Origin: Spirochaetales bacterium
GTDB lineage: Bacteria; Spirochaetota; Spirochaetia; DSM-2461
DNA: 64,000 bases
Direction: 5' to 3'
Assembly (NCBI GenBank): GCA_028533045.1
Contig: JAQQAP010000038.1
Location: 1-64,000, forward strand
The position numbers and the translations under genes were made by a program. The notes below the pieces were generated by a model that saw only the letters and a list, made by a program, of their open reading frames with translations, did no database searches and had not been told where the DNA came from. Shown here piece after piece: positions 37,257 through 43,394 of this stretch. Each line of letters begins with the position of its first letter. Position 1 is the first letter of the stretch.

Positions 37257-38021
37257 ATGACGTTAGAACAATACGAAAAGAGATATGCCGAACTTAAAGA
37301 GCAGGGAATACGATCTATGCACTTTGGGTTTAACGGACAGCTCCCGGTTGATTTCTTGAAAATAGAAGTCTTTGAGGAAGTCATCAAAGAAAGCCATATC
37401 CATATGATCGAAAGGAGTGTAAACGAAAACGGCCAATGGGTAAAAAAGAAGGAAATTGTTGATTGGAAGAAGGGGTTTATCTTCATGTTAGGGGGGCTTT
37501 GTGGTATAGAGTCCGATCCTTTTGTAAGTGAGAAGACCGGAAAGTATGCCTATCTGTCCCATGCGAGACTATGGCGGTTACTTCCTTCTATGAACAAAGA
37601 ATCGGTATCCGCAGAATATGAATTTGACGCCGAAATCCGGGCAGAAGAAACCATTTTGAAGAACGAGATCAAGTTCCAGGATTATCAGCAGAAGGTAGCA
37701 GAAGGGAAAAAGCCGCGTTATGAAGTCTACCAGAAGTACAAAACCGAAGCCGACAAAAGGCTTGCTGTTGTGGAAATGGCGAAATTCGGTAGACAACGTG
37801 CCGACTCTGGGGCGCATAAGAGGGGAATAATCAAAATGCTTAAACTTCCCAATCCAAGAGAAGAGTTTATAGGTATGACTGTGTTTTGCTTTAAGTGTGT
37901 TCCCAACTTAGATAACATGGAAATGAGACACAAACTGCTTAATGATGATAAATCTGCTCAAGAGGTGTTTGGTATTGCTGATAATACAGGGACCATTCCC
38001 CATGTACCGGAGGGAGAATGA
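37257..38021 (+). CDS. Possible single-strand annealing protein
   Basis: 254 residues. The alternating Ala/Arg helix (FGRQRADSGAHKRGIIKML) followed by a Phe-rich strand (FIGMTVFCFKCVP) resembles Rad52/Erf-like annealing proteins of phages. First gene of the plus early operon, in the same operon as an Mre11-Rad50 fusion. Family match is not certain; could be an unrelated nucleic-acid-binding protein. Confidence 0.35.
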   Translation: MTLEQYEKRYAELKEQGIRSMHFGFNGQLPVDFLKIEVFEEVIKESHIHMIERSVNENGQWVKKKEIVDWKKGFIFMLGGLCGIESDPFVSEKTGKYAYLSHARLWRLLPSMNKESVSAEYEFDAEIRAEETILKNEIKFQDYQQKVAEGKKPRYEVYQKYKTEADKRLAVVEMAKFGRQRADSGAHKRGIIKMLKLPNPREEFIGMTVFCFKCVPNLDNMEMRHKLLNDDKSAQEVFGIADNTGTIPHVPEGE

Positions 38022-38260: not shown

Positions 38261-38466
38261 AAAAGAAGAATCGAATAATTTGTTTTGACAAAGAAGTGAC
38301 CAGCTTAGTTATCGGTACTACCGTTTATAGACGGGTAGTAAAGAAGGGAAAAGAAACCGTCTGGATGAAGAAATACGAAGAAGAAAAGTCCAGAAAAACT
38401 CTTAATGAAAAGACTAACGAGGTAAAAGATAGCCTTGATGAACAGTTGGCAAAGGTGGGGAAATGA
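38257..38466 (+). CDS. Small basic protein
   Basis: 69 residues, Lys/Glu-rich, ATGA overlap on both sides. N-terminal beta part (IICFDKEVTSLVIGTTVYRR), C-terminal helix. Unknown. Confidence 0.45.
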   Translation: MKKKNRIICFDKEVTSLVIGTTVYRRVVKKGKETVWMKKYEEEKSRKTLNEKTNEVKDSLDEQLAKVGK

Positions 38467-39353
38467 AAAAGGAAGAGTTGAGTAATTACGCCAAGGGGAT
38501 GAATTGTTCCGCAGATGTTTTCGATTGGATAGAAAAGCGAGTACCGGAAAAATATGATCTATCTGAGGTAGAACATATTTTGGATTATCTGGCGTCAAGC
38601 CGTAGACCGAAAAGACTTGAACGAGCGACTTATGACCAAATGAAATCCAATGCCGCAAAATGGGTAAAGTCCCTATCTAAAAAAGGCTCTAAAATTAACG
38701 AAGGAGAAAATGGGGTGGAAACCGTTTTGGATTTCGGTGATGGGTTTCGATTTGTTAAGCTTATTAGCGAAGAATCATACAAGAGAGAAGGAAGCCTTAT
38801 GCGTCATTGCGTGGCATCGTACTACGGGCGTGACGTTGAAATATTTTCTTTGCGTGATCGAAATAACAACCCTCATTGCACTATTGAAAAAGATCAACAG
38901 ATCAAAGGTAAGGGAAACGGAGATATTAGCCCTAAATATATTGATTATGTAGTTAGATTTTTGGAATGGTCTGGCATGAAAGTACGTGATTCTGAAATGA
39001 AGAACCTTGGGTATGAGGTTGTATCATTTGCAGAATATATTATCGGAGGTAACCTTTACCGAGAAAGATATATTCGCAAAGAAGAGGAGGTAACCTACAA
39101 TGAAGATGTGGTTATATTTGACGATCTTTTAGAGGCTATAGCATACCGAGGAGATAAGATATGCCTATTTAAAGGGTATGCCTATTTCGAAGGTTCCTCC
39201 ATAACCGATCTGGGACAGCTTGCCTCTATCGGGGGGTATGCCGATTTCCGTAATTCCTCCATAACCGATCTGGGACAGCTTGCCTCTATCGGGGGGTATG
39301 CCTATTTCGGGGATCTATATGAACTTGAGAGAGAGTGGGAGGCTAGAAAATGA
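38463..39353 (+). CDS. PcfJ-like protein with C-terminal repeats
   Basis: 296 residues. LMRHCVASYYGRDVEIFSLR then HCTIE is the PcfJ-like core. The C-terminus carries repeats SSITDLGQLASIGGYA, produced by an almost exact 60-bp tandem duplication. PcfJ-like proteins occur on plasmids and phages with poorly known roles. Overlaps the fusion nuclease gene by ATGA. Confidence 0.65.
   Translation: MKKEELSNYAKGMNCSADVFDWIEKRVPEKYDLSEVEHILDYLASSRRPKRLERATYDQMKSNAAKWVKSLSKKGSKINEGENGVETVLDFGDGFRFVKLISEESYKREGSLMRHCVASYYGRDVEIFSLRDRNNNPHCTIEKDQQIKGKGNGDISPKYIDYVVRFLEWSGMKVRDSEMKNLGYEVVSFAEYIIGGNLYRERYIRKEEEVTYNEDVVIFDDLLEAIAYRGDKICLFKGYAYFEGSSITDLGQLASIGGYADFRNSSITDLGQLASIGGYAYFGDLYELEREWEARK
39194..39302 (+). 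repeat. 60-bp tandem duplication in PcfJ-like gene
   Basis: 49 bases are identical between 39194-39242 and 39254-39302, period 60. It preserves the reading frame (20 residues per unit). Recent slippage is likely. Confidence 0.9.
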
Positions 39354-42300
39354 AAACAGGACACATAGCAGATTTTCACCACTCCCCGGAACGCCACAAT
39401 AAGTGTATGCGGATTCTTGATCAGGTAAAAGAAGTAATGCCGGATTTAGACTTGCTAACAAACTCCGGTGAAAACTTCCACAACCCCTATAATATCCAGA
39501 GTGCGCTTAATTCACTTCTGTCTAAATGGGAAGAGATAACAACAATCGGCCCGGTAGCAACAATTAACGCCACTCAAGGAAAACACGAAAAAGAAGGAAT
39601 GGTAGAGCTTCTTTCCAGGTCCGGGGTAGTGGTAATGAAGCCGGGGAATCAGTATATGCTTTCTAAAAGTGGAAGGATTGTAATTGAAGACAATAATTAT
39701 TCTGCTGTACTGCCTAGACTCGCAATGTTCCCCGTACCCCACGCCCACAAAGCTAACTTACTTAAAAAAGGCATGACAGGGGAAGAGGCCAACGCCCATG
39801 TAAACAAGGCCATGGCTAAACTCTGCCAACAGTACGGGGCTATGAGTGCCCAACATCCCGATGTTCCTTCCCTGGCTGTTGGTCACGGCGTAGTAAAAGG
39901 AAAAAACACCAGAGAGCTAAAAGCACTTTCGGAAAGCTCTATTTACTCAACAGAAGCCGAACTATCCGCAATAGGGGCAGATTTCTACGCATGGGGTCAT
40001 TATCATAACCCTGTAGACTTTGAAATCATTCGGGGTGGATATTTAGGGTCTTTCGCATGGGATTTTAACGAAACCGGCTATAAACCGGCTATGACAATAA
40101 TTGATTGGGATACCATGGAAGTAACCCGCCATCCTTTCGATATTAACGAAAGGAAAAAATACGTCATGAACCCCGGTGATATTCTTCCTGTAATGATGAA
40201 ACAGGATGTATGGTTGGTGAACAACGGGACTGATTTCACCGCAGAAGACTGCAAAAAGATGGGAGCCGATTTCGTCAAGGTTACTTCTGAAATAGAAGTA
40301 GAAAACAAGATACGATCAACGGAAGTTATCGAAGCTGTTACCTATCAGGATAAATTCAAAGCGGTTTACCCCGATGCTACGGATGAACAATTAACTATCT
40401 GCGAACAGTTTTGGAACGAAGACAAAGCAGACGGGAAAATCCCTGAAAAGAAAGTTATATCTCCCATGTCGGTAGAGGTTCACGGATCAAAGGCGTTTCT
40501 TGAAAGACTTGGAAAAGAAACAGTGTCCTTCTCTGTGGAAAATCTGGATTATTGCACTACAATGCTTTCCGGACCCGGAGGATATGGGAAAAGTTCTCTT
40601 TTCGATTACCTGTCTCCCTTTTCGGTGTTGTTTCTTCAAAGTAACTCCCTGATTTCCACCTTTGAGTTGGGCGATTCTTATATCCGGCAGTCTTTCAAGG
40701 TGAATGATACCGTTTATGAAATCGAGAAGCTTTTCAAGCCTACTCTGAAAAATCCCAAAGCGGAATATTTCGCATGGGAAATTGTAGACGGCCAGAGAAA
40801 AGCTATCCCCGGTTTGACCGGCAACAAACAGCCTTACGATGAATGGTGTCTTTCTGTTTTCGGTTCTCCCCGGAAATATGCTTCATCGGTTCTCAACACT
40901 CAGTTTGATGATAACCAGTCAAAATTCATGGGACAGTCTATCAATCCTTCCTTAATTCAGGCTACCAATGTAGAGCTAAAAGCCCTTTTCCATGAATTGG
41001 CCGGTACAGACATGAAGCACTTGGAAATGAAATGTAAGAAGGAGATGGACACGTACCGAGAAAAAGCAGAAGAAGAAGAAATCAAAAAGGCCGGTGTTGC
41101 TGAAAACATTCCCGATAAAACGCTAACAATGATAGCGACCAAAGAGCTTGAAAATACGCTATATCGGGAAGAATCAACAATGGACAGCTATAAGAGCCGA
41201 GAAGCCCTTATGGTCGATGCTGTGGCTCGTATGGAGGCTGTAGAGAAAGAAAATGCTCTTATTGAATCTGCTATTGTAACTCTGGAATCTCAAGTGACAG
41301 CAGAGGAGGAGAATAAAGAAGTATTTGAAAAAGAACTATCCGAACTTGGGAACGTGGATATTGAGGATATTAACCGCCGACTCTCTGTTATGGATACGGA
41401 GAAAGCAATATATGACAAGAGACTTACGGAACTCCCCGCGATACAGGAGAGAAACAAAGAAAAGCGTGATAATTACGAGACTTCTGTAACTGAGTATAAC
41501 GCCGCCATGTCCAGTATAAGAACCCATAACGCCGAAGTGGACAGGATAACCGGAGAAGTAAACCACGCAACATCCATGAAATCCAGCATCTTGAATCGCC
41601 GGGATTCGATCATCCGTCAAGCAGAAAGCGACACTGTAAAGAAGAATGATGAAAACGCCCGGAATTTCACATCCGAACAGGAAAGGCTTAAAACCGAGAT
41701 AGAAACTCTCACGAACAGAATTGAAGATGGTAAAAAGTATATCGATTCTGTAAAACCCTGTCCTAAGTGTGGCTATATGGATGAATCTGCCATAGCGGAA
41801 AAAGAAAAGTATGAGAAAGGTGTTGAACGACTCAAAGCAGAAAAAGAAACTGCCGAAAACACTCTTTCTAACCTCAAGGCCCCCGAACCTGTAACAATCG
41901 AGCCGGACCTATCCGAAATAGACAAAGAGATTGTCGAAGTTGACGCAAAAATCAACGTTCAGATACCCGAACGAAAGGAAGAACCCGCCGCTCCTGTCAT
42001 GGATACGTTGGAAGATGAAACAATTCCTTCCTTTGATTTGGAGTCCTACAATAGATACAAAGAACATATTGCCGGATATTCCGAAGATAAGGCAACAGAG
42101 ATAAGGACAAAAATTACAGAATCATCTAAACGGATTGCTACTATCAAGGAACAGATAAGCGTAAAGGCTTTATCTAAACAGGCTGTAGATAATACGTGCC
42201 GGGAAGAATTATCGGACGTAAGAGATGAAATCAGAAAACAGGAGGAAAGAATAACATCGATAAAGCATGATATATCGGTAAACAAAACGCGTGTTAATGA

Positions 42301-42859
42301 TATTGACAAAATGCTTGAATCCCTGTCAGAATACGATAAAAGGATTGAAGAATACCGGGAAAGAGAAGAGTTCTGGTCGGATATGAAAAAGAAATGGGGG
42401 CCTAACGGAGTACCGGCAAGAATACTGGAACATACCGGGCCTTACGTGGATGCCCTGGCTAATGAGCTATTGGCTAAATACTACCCGGTTTACAAGGTTC
42501 ATTCCGAAACTACCCGACCGTCAGCGGACGGGAAAAAAGAATTGGAAGTATTCAGCATCAATGTGGTCAACCAGGAAACGGGACGGATTAAACCGCTGAA
42601 CTGTATATCTGGGGAAGAAAGAAATTTTGTTGTTCTTGCCCTTCGTAATGCGTTCGGAAAAATCAACAAGCAGAATTCCTTGGAAGAGTGGACCGTATCA
42701 TACGAAGACGAGCCGGACGCTCATGTTTCCAGTGATTTCATTCATGCTTTTTGGGATATGGTCGAAGAAACAACTGCCGGGAAGAAGGGGATATGTATAG
42801 CCCATTCCAACGAGATCAAGACCAGATCAGGGTCACAAATTGATATAAGAGAGGTGTAA
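39350..42859 (+). CDS. Fused Mre11-Rad50 (SbcD-SbcC) nuclease-ATPase
   Basis: 1169 residues in one chain. Residues 1-330 are Mre11-like: HIADFHH (Asp8, His10), QGKHEKEG (His79, Lys replacing the usual Asn), VGHG (His179) and GHYHNP (His217, His219). Walker A GPGGYGKSS is near 410; zinc hook CPKC at 804-807 within long coiled coils; signature SGEERNF near 1087; Walker B TVSYEDEP near 1115. Processes DNA ends for recombination. In T4 and cells these are two proteins, so the fusion is unusual. Confidence 0.85.
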   Translation: MKTGHIADFHHSPERHNKCMRILDQVKEVMPDLDLLTNSGENFHNPYNIQSALNSLLSKWEEITTIGPVATINATQGKHEKEGMVELLSRSGVVVMKPGNQYMLSKSGRIVIEDNNYSAVLPRLAMFPVPHAHKANLLKKGMTGEEANAHVNKAMAKLCQQYGAMSAQHPDVPSLAVGHGVVKGKNTRELKALSESSIYSTEAELSAIGADFYAWGHYHNPVDFEIIRGGYLGSFAWDFNETGYKPAMTIIDWDTMEVTRHPFDINERKKYVMNPGDILPVMMKQDVWLVNNGTDFTAEDCKKMGADFVKVTSEIEVENKIRSTEVIEAVTYQDKFKAVYPDATDEQLTICEQFWNEDKADGKIPEKKVISPMSVEVHGSKAFLERLGKETVSFSVENLDYCTTMLSGPGGYGKSSLFDYLSPFSVLFLQSNSLISTFELGDSYIRQSFKVNDTVYEIEKLFKPTLKNPKAEYFAWEIVDGQRKAIPGLTGNKQPYDEWCLSVFGSPRKYASSVLNTQFDDNQSKFMGQSINPSLIQATNVELKALFHELAGTDMKHLEMKCKKEMDTYREKAEEEEIKKAGVAENIPDKTLTMIATKELENTLYREESTMDSYKSREALMVDAVARMEAVEKENALIESAIVTLESQVTAEEENKEVFEKELSELGNVDIEDINRRLSVMDTEKAIYDKRLTELPAIQERNKEKRDNYETSVTEYNAAMSSIRTHNAEVDRITGEVNHATSMKSSILNRRDSIIRQAESDTVKKNDENARNFTSEQERLKTEIETLTNRIEDGKKYIDSVKPCPKCGYMDESAIAEKEKYEKGVERLKAEKETAENTLSNLKAPEPVTIEPDLSEIDKEIVEVDAKINVQIPERKEEPAAPVMDTLEDETIPSFDLESYNRYKEHIAGYSEDKATEIRTKITESSKRIATIKEQISVKALSKQAVDNTCREELSDVRDEIRKQEERITSIKHDISVNKTRVNDIDKMLESLSEYDKRIEEYREREEFWSDMKKKWGPNGVPARILEHTGPYVDALANELLAKYYPVYKVHSETTRPSADGKKELEVFSINVVNQETGRIKPLNCISGEERNFVVLALRNAFGKINKQNSLEEWTVSYEDEPDAHVSSDFIHAFWDMVEETTAGKKGICIAHSNEIKTRSGSQIDIREV

Positions 42860-43070: not shown

Positions 43071-43394
43071 ATGAGTCAAACAAAATCAGAAAGAGTAAAA
43101 GCACTTATCATTTCAGAAGCAAAAAAAATGTTTATTGAAAGAGGATATCACGGTATGAATTATCGTGATTTAGCAAAGGAAACAGGGCTTTCCCCGGCGG
43201 CTCCCTATCATCGGTTCAAAAACAAGCTTGAATTGTTTGAAGCTTGTATTGATGGTGCAGAATTGACGTTTGATTGTGCGGCAGAAAGACCATTAGAGTT
43301 TACTATGCTGTTGGAAAAGACCCTACAGGAAAATGGTGGAATCATTTCTAAGTTGTCACAGTGTGACCCGGAAGTGTTATTTAGTTTGGTGTAA
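43071..43394 (+). CDS. TetR-type HTH regulator, short
   Basis: 107 residues. Residues 5-60 are a TetR N-terminal helix-turn-helix (MFIERGYHGMNYRDLAKETG, then FKNKLELFEACIDG). The usual 130-residue ligand-binding region is missing or very short. TetR proteins are rare in phages; it may control early genes. Confidence 0.7.
   Translation: MSQTKSERVKALIISEAKKMFIERGYHGMNYRDLAKETGLSPAAPYHRFKNKLELFEACIDGAELTFDCAAERPLEFTMLLEKTLQENGGIISKLSQCDPEVLFSLV

Follow-up and report, generated by a model that had tools for sequence, protein, structure and literature searches.

In the 2011 account by Yoshida, Claverie and Ogata (PMC3175470), the Mre11-Rad50 systems of phage T4 (gp47/gp46), E. coli (SbcD/SbcC), archaea and eukaryotes consist of two chains with canonical GDxxD and GNHD/E motifs in the nuclease, and the fusion of both into a single chain is described for Mimivirus, a Bacillus phage, plasmids, bacteria and eukaryotes. 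Two of these fusions, Mimivirus R555 and that of Bacillus phage 0305phi8-36, are described there with an N-terminal nuclease and a C-terminal Rad50 ATPase. Here, we describe a protein with the same domain order, encoded on a 64,000-nucleotide stretch of Spirochaetales DNA (positions 1 to 64,000 of contig JAQQAP010000038.1; in the following, 'the window'). It is a kind of fusion known since 2011, but a divergent singleton with a private set of metal-site residues. The reading that we favour, with moderate confidence, is that a spirochaete phage with a contractile tail uses a single-chain Mre11-Rad50 (SbcD-SbcC type) as its DNA-end machine, which probably still acts as a nuclease but has a remodelled second-metal site.

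The gene is a single open reading frame (ORF), uninterrupted from ATG to stop, whose 1169-residue product begins with an Mre11/SbcD nuclease and a helix-loop-helix; after a short linker, a Rad50/SbcC ATPase follows that carries a zinc hook of sequence CPKC (Table 1). By eye, a Shine-Dalgarno-like GGGAGG is found just 5' of it at 39337-39342, and the stop of the gene before it (38463-39353) overlaps with the start of the ORF. Both halves were recognized with profiles from which the fusion protein had been left out, one of 15 other viral nucleases and one of 13 other ATPase head pairs. Against the former, residues 1-368 reach 83.7 bits (E 7.8e-22, taking a nominal one million sequences); against the latter, the ATPase heads reach 116.7 bits. 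In neither case was any of 200 shuffled sequences reported. The ATPase part further matches the SbcC-like family PHROG 77 (E 2.6e-12). The predicted folds agree with these assignments. When the nuclease model, folded alone with a mean predicted local distance difference test score (pLDDT) of 70.9, is compared by VIA-align, the first 39 rows are all Mre11/SbcD (Z 23.5-18.0; best match 5dny_C with Z 23.5, a root-mean-square deviation (rmsd) of 2.4 and 220 aligned residues), while other phosphoesterases follow from Z 17.4 down. Likewise, the ATPase N-lobe (residues 370-520 of the full-length model) has Rad50 as its top match (3qkr_A, Z 14.6, rmsd 2.4, 137 aligned). These likenesses were drawn to solved SbcCD and Mre11-Rad50 structures, the T4 proteins themselves not being among those compared; most catalytic motifs are common to the T4, E. 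coli, archaeal and eukaryotic systems and the window protein. The single chain proposed in a preliminary description of this DNA is thus borne out.

Table 1. Features of the fusion gene and of a gene upstream (positions in the window)
Feature	Positions	Strand	Basis
Gene upstream, weakly similar to phrog_13782 (function unknown)	37257..38021	+	15.9 bits; hhalign probability 5.5%
Mre11-Rad50 (SbcD-SbcC) fusion ORF	39350..42859	+	ORF reading, leave-one-out profiles, fold matches
Calcineurin-like (Mre11/SbcD) nuclease domain, residues 1-265	39350..40144	+	Profile 83.7 bits; top 39 VIA-align rows Mre11/SbcD
Motif I, D8-F-H10	39371..39379	+	D8 and H10 invariant in alignment
Motif II, G40-E41-N42-F43-H44, Glu41 for bridging Asp	39467..39481	+	D in 15 of 15 comparison rows
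Motif III, G77-K78-H79-E80, Lys78 at Asn position, His79 retained	39578..39589	+	S/T in 11, N in 4 of 15 comparison rows
Motif IV, His179	39884..39886	+	Invariant in alignment
Motif V, H217-Y-H219	39998..40006	+	Nuclease alignment
Region 326-361, helices 332-339 and 345-361, likely Rad50-binding helix-loop-helix	40325..40432	+	Secondary structure of nuclease model
Linker of ~8 residues (362-369), ahead of first ATPase strand (370)	40433..40456	+	Models
Walker A, GPGGYGKS, residues 408-415	40571..40594	+	Motif reading
Coiled-coil arms, about residues 540-1010	40967..42379	+	Long helices in model
Zinc hook, C804-P-K-C807	41759..41770	+	Motif reading
Signature S-G-E-E (usually S-G-G-E), residues 1087-1090	42608..42619	+	Alignment
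Walker B/catalytic D1120-E1121	42707..42712	+	Motif reading
H-loop His1152	42803..42805	+	His aligned in relatives

Given that the source is a draft metagenomic bin with 7% contamination, and that some relatives (L018, L021, L042, L043) have the two genes side by side, overlapping or almost touching, so that a single error could fuse them, we considered whether faulty assembly or base calling had merged two neighbouring genes. We judge this extremely improbable: fused relatives exist in two independent records (G142/L019 and L017), homology runs unbroken across the junction, and codon-position composition is even along the ORF. The GC contents of the three codon positions are nearly equal in both parts (0.529/0.351/0.436 for 39350-40450 and 0.501/0.347/0.432 for 40451-42859) and therefore give no hint of a junction or frameshift. 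Chance or artefact as the origin of the fusion was rejected on the strength of the leave-one-out profiles for each half and the two independent fused relatives.

The ATPase half carries Walker A, the Walker B DE, the H-loop His and coiled coils with a CxxC hook. At the presumed hook, the SbcC-type proteins of the L021, L042 and L043 phages have C-x4-C instead of CxxC. A PADLOC match of residues 403-995 to LmuB (E 1.3e-7) would fit an anti-phage or anti-plasmid defence protein of the Lamassu type carried by the phage. We consider this very unlikely, however, because the same LmuB model (PDLC03859) also matches five of six other phage Rad50/SbcC-type proteins tried, which means that the match simply reports a Rad50-like ATPase; in addition, three other proteins scanned, two of which are neighbours on the upstream side, gave no PADLOC match, LmuA and LmuC not having been searched for.

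The nuclease half departs from its relatives at the metal site. D8, H10, H79 and H179 are found in all 15 comparison nucleases and H219 in 14, the remaining one (L017) being gapped; position 217 holds H in 10 of them, D in four and a gap in L017. The fusion protein has all of these (D8, H10, H79, H179, H217, H219) and thereby retains six of eight motif residues, with H179, H217 and H219 as the equivalents of His173, His206 and His208 in P. furiosus numbering. The other two are private to it, their codons being read directly in the DNA: position 41 is D in every comparison nuclease and E in the fusion protein only, and position 78, K in the window protein, is taken by S or T in 11 comparison nucleases and by N in the other four. 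The strict DxH...GDxxD...GNHD/E motif is accordingly incomplete, with DxH present, motif II as GENFH and motif III as GKHE. An Asn-less motif III, GT[PV][ST]HD, is present in 11 of the 15 viral nucleases, fused and unfused, and the strict motif therefore does not define the viral family; the loss of the Asn is a property of this group, in which D8, H10, D41, H79, D80 and H179 are invariant, whereas Glu41 and Lys78 belong to the window protein alone. A scan for the pattern TQGKHEK gave one match, within a 29-residue frame, which we judged to be chance, and we found no literature on the GT[PV][ST]HD variant or on this protein, although the motif itself was not used as a search term.

The preliminary description had read motif III as GNHE with Lys in place of Asn, and motif II as having Glu-Asn for its usual Asp. 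Lys78 is real and unique among the rows, but its standing as a lone oddity is weakened by the absence of the Asn in 11 of them; moreover, next to its nearest relatives, the motif appears as a derivative of GT[PV][ST]HD with an ambiguous Gly-Lys region, and since G77 is aligned as an insertion, the comparison with GNHE is one of two possible alignments. In motif II, Glu41 does replace the Asp, uniquely so, but Asn42 occupies a variable position and is no part of the replacement. A changed metal use, which had also been suggested, is plausible.

What these changes mean for catalysis can be read in more than one way. The nuclease half may be catalytically dead and serve as a dimerisation and DNA-binding platform within an ATP-driven DNA-end tether, with another enzyme doing the cutting. 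The change of the bridging Asp to Glu in one of 16 rows, that of the window protein, and of the Asn ligand to Lys would fit this, as would a further gene of this phage, near its packaging genes, whose stand-alone product is a candidate calcineurin-like phosphoesterase with GNHD (L005:9626-10723, contig 73626-74723; weak Pfam match). We take Asn97 of the phosphoesterase Rv0805 to be the equivalent of the Asn-position ligand in Mre11 motif III. Its exchange for Ala (N97A) inactivates Rv0805, as stated in PMC3776917, and this loss of an Asn ligand would be in line with a dead nuclease. By contrast, six of the eight motif residues are retained, the related group also lacks the Asn and yet keeps six other positions invariant, and, measured against the ATPase half, the nuclease half has not diverged further than that of Leptospira phage LE1 with its canonical GNHD: the end branches of nuclease and ATPase are 2.47 and 1.97 for the fusion protein and 2.71 and 1.77 for LE1. 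These values indicate no excess decay of the nuclease half and, together with the six retained residues, would speak for nuclease activity. We consider a dead nuclease unlikely; the nuclease half is probably still a nuclease, an altered and perhaps weakened one. More tentatively, it is possible that a group of phage Mre11 nucleases, fused and unfused, dropped the Asn ligand of the second metal and that the window protein went furthest, either as a nuclease using one metal or another metal, or as a pure ATP-driven DNA tether with separated functions.

Several points weigh against a single-chain Mre11-Rad50 that still cuts. The full-length model is of low quality (pLDDT 60 on average, mostly below 60 in the nuclease part), the Pfam nuclease model matches below its cut-off (16.2 versus 21.5 bits), and the whole fusion protein gave no match to Pfam at E 0.1. 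In the ATPase half, S-G-E-E and V-S stand in place of the signature S-G-G-E and the D-loop L-D, at positions where the relatives vary too. Two metal-site residues, Glu41 and Lys78, are altered, the Rv0805 precedent would by analogy argue against cutting, and no close relatives were found by which selection on these two residues could be gauged.

The nearest relatives found are likewise single-chain fusions, each with ~24% identity: one of 1172 amino acids from the Spirochaetales metagenome contig JAFGQK010000048.1 (G142, L004/L019) and one of 1186 amino acids from IMG/VR (L017). They differ from the window protein with its GENFH and GKHE in motif II (GDLTH in G142, GDMFN in L017) and motif III (GTPTHD and GTVTHD, respectively). 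In L017:5986-9543, a GHIH segment stands out of order after a GSVYPVNWGE segment, be it through an assembly error or a real rearrangement. The same nuclease type also occurs in unfused pairs (L020, L021, L042, L043). L025 and Microcystis phage Mel-JY01 are members of another fused group, whose motif is T4-like; in Mel-JY01, the 1066-residue WWT39521.1 ('AAA domain containing protein') holds both halves in one chain like the window protein, but belongs to the GNHD group and has GDIH in motif V. Among spirochaete phages, LE1 encodes an adjacent SbcD-type/SbcC-type pair (gp75/gp74) with an uncharacterised gene just upstream; in the ATPase tree, LE1 and the window protein are found on the same side, but LE1 differs in having two separate proteins and a canonical RGNHD motif III. 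In the uncultured phage LR756508 (484 kb; L052:1444-5666), the fusion is split into a nuclease ORF, a cysteine-cluster ORF and the remainder, and the middle ORF resembles a homing endonuclease, possibly within an intron.

Other searches returned little. There was no relative of the fusion protein by tblastn in 50,697 phage records (E 1e-3) or in an IMG/VR scan with patterns derived from it, and a PDB sequence search with the fusion protein alone gave no matches. In 148 relatives and 394 genomes of the class, each set including the genome from which the window comes, there were no matches beyond this genome and G142; a scan of genome contigs yielded one relative, the G142 contig, and plasmids gave partial matches covering at most 66% of the query. 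An order-wide profile search (12 of 26 genomes) retrieved mostly ordinary SbcD and SbcC, and nine SbcD frames among the matches listed all have GNHD.

In trees that include five fusions (the window protein, G142, L017, L025 and Mel-JY01; R555 and 0305phi8-36 were not in), both the nuclease and the ATPase half require at least two changes of the fused state across starred branches. A single clade of all five is rejected by the approximately unbiased (AU) test (p 0.00028 for the nuclease, 4e-81 for the ATPase), whereas a clade of the window protein, G142 and L017 is not (ATPase AU p 0.219; in the nuclease tree the three group of themselves, with a support of 74/88, unstarred). The window protein and LE1 form long branches, and their placement is unsure. 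The survey that the preliminary description had called for brought up further phage fusions, one of them in a named phage. The two-protein Mre11-Rad50 complex already has both subunits in equal number, so that the fixed 1:1 ratio that had been stressed adds little. The contrast to a two-protein norm holds in so far as the chain is single here, but such fusions have been described since 2011 (as PMC3175470 reports) and occur in other phages, which rules out an unprecedented one. R555, too, deviates at the metal site, with His for the third Asp and Asp for His206 as given there, while the window protein has other substitutions, Glu for the bridging Asp and Lys for the Asn, and belongs to another lineage.

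By analogy with described complexes, two chains of the window protein would pair via their nuclease domains and zinc hooks, with the ATPase heads paired as well. With ATP bound, the Rad50 heads would act as a clamp on DNA ends and as a gate for the nuclease with its remodelled second-metal site, in which Glu41 would take the place of the bridging Asp and Lys78 stand where others have Asn or Ser/Thr. Judging by its position, region 326-361 is likely the Rad50-binding helix-loop-helix; it would be joined to the first Rad50 strand by ~8 residues, near the 9-12 residues that Yoshida et al. estimated to be needed (PMC3175470), and the two-protein architecture can thus be kept. DNA ends would be tethered and trimmed for phage recombination and replication, for which the DNA-end role of T4 gp46/47, as outlined in the discussion of that paper, serves as the model of the likely job.

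The contig, of 83,536 bases, has an exact 141-base terminal repeat and hence represents a circular assembly of 83,395 bp. Its terminase, portal (weak match) and tail sheath, along with a helicase and Rha and AntA-type regulators, mark it as a contractile-tailed phage. The bin is placed in the class Spirochaetia on the grounds that G142, a relative of the same class, is a Spirochaetales metagenome contig. The gene at 37257-38021 scores 15.9 bits against a profile of upstream ORFs that drew on five of 12 loci, a motif filter excluding the others, and none of 1000 shuffles scored as high; LE1 gp76 scores 10.0 bits, and the control ORF +37188 proved to be the same ORF and was set aside. Its hhalign match to phrog_13782 has a probability of only 5.5% (E 0.007). 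In related phages (L021, G142), this family is encoded immediately 5' of the SbcD-type gene, and LE1 has an uncharacterised gene at that place. Perhaps the product of 37257-38021 is a recombination partner of the fusion protein. The product of the next gene, 38463-39353, is PcfJ-like (Pfam E 3.9e-8) and contains a short segment that is repeated close to its C-terminus; the gene overlaps the fusion gene translationally. Downstream, 43071-43394 is a short TetR_N-type DNA-binding ORF overlapping the next one, possibly a truncated or frameshifted regulator. As for the host, TIGR00619 detected no SbcD in the bin (rated 97% complete) while 13 of 14 control genomes were positive, the best SbcC-like chromosomal match in the bin reads as SMC, and the same-genus genomes G001 and G002 gave no match to the fusion profile. 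The host genus may lack SbcCD.

The five fusions compared cannot be accommodated in a single clade, in support of the 2011 proposal that viruses have fused both genes repeatedly. If the rebuilt metal site of the window protein still cuts, it would show, as a natural experiment, which share of the two-metal centre is required by Mre11; if it no longer does, the protein would be a natural nuclease-dead tether. In either case, a single chain may ease expression and structure solution compared with the two-protein complex.

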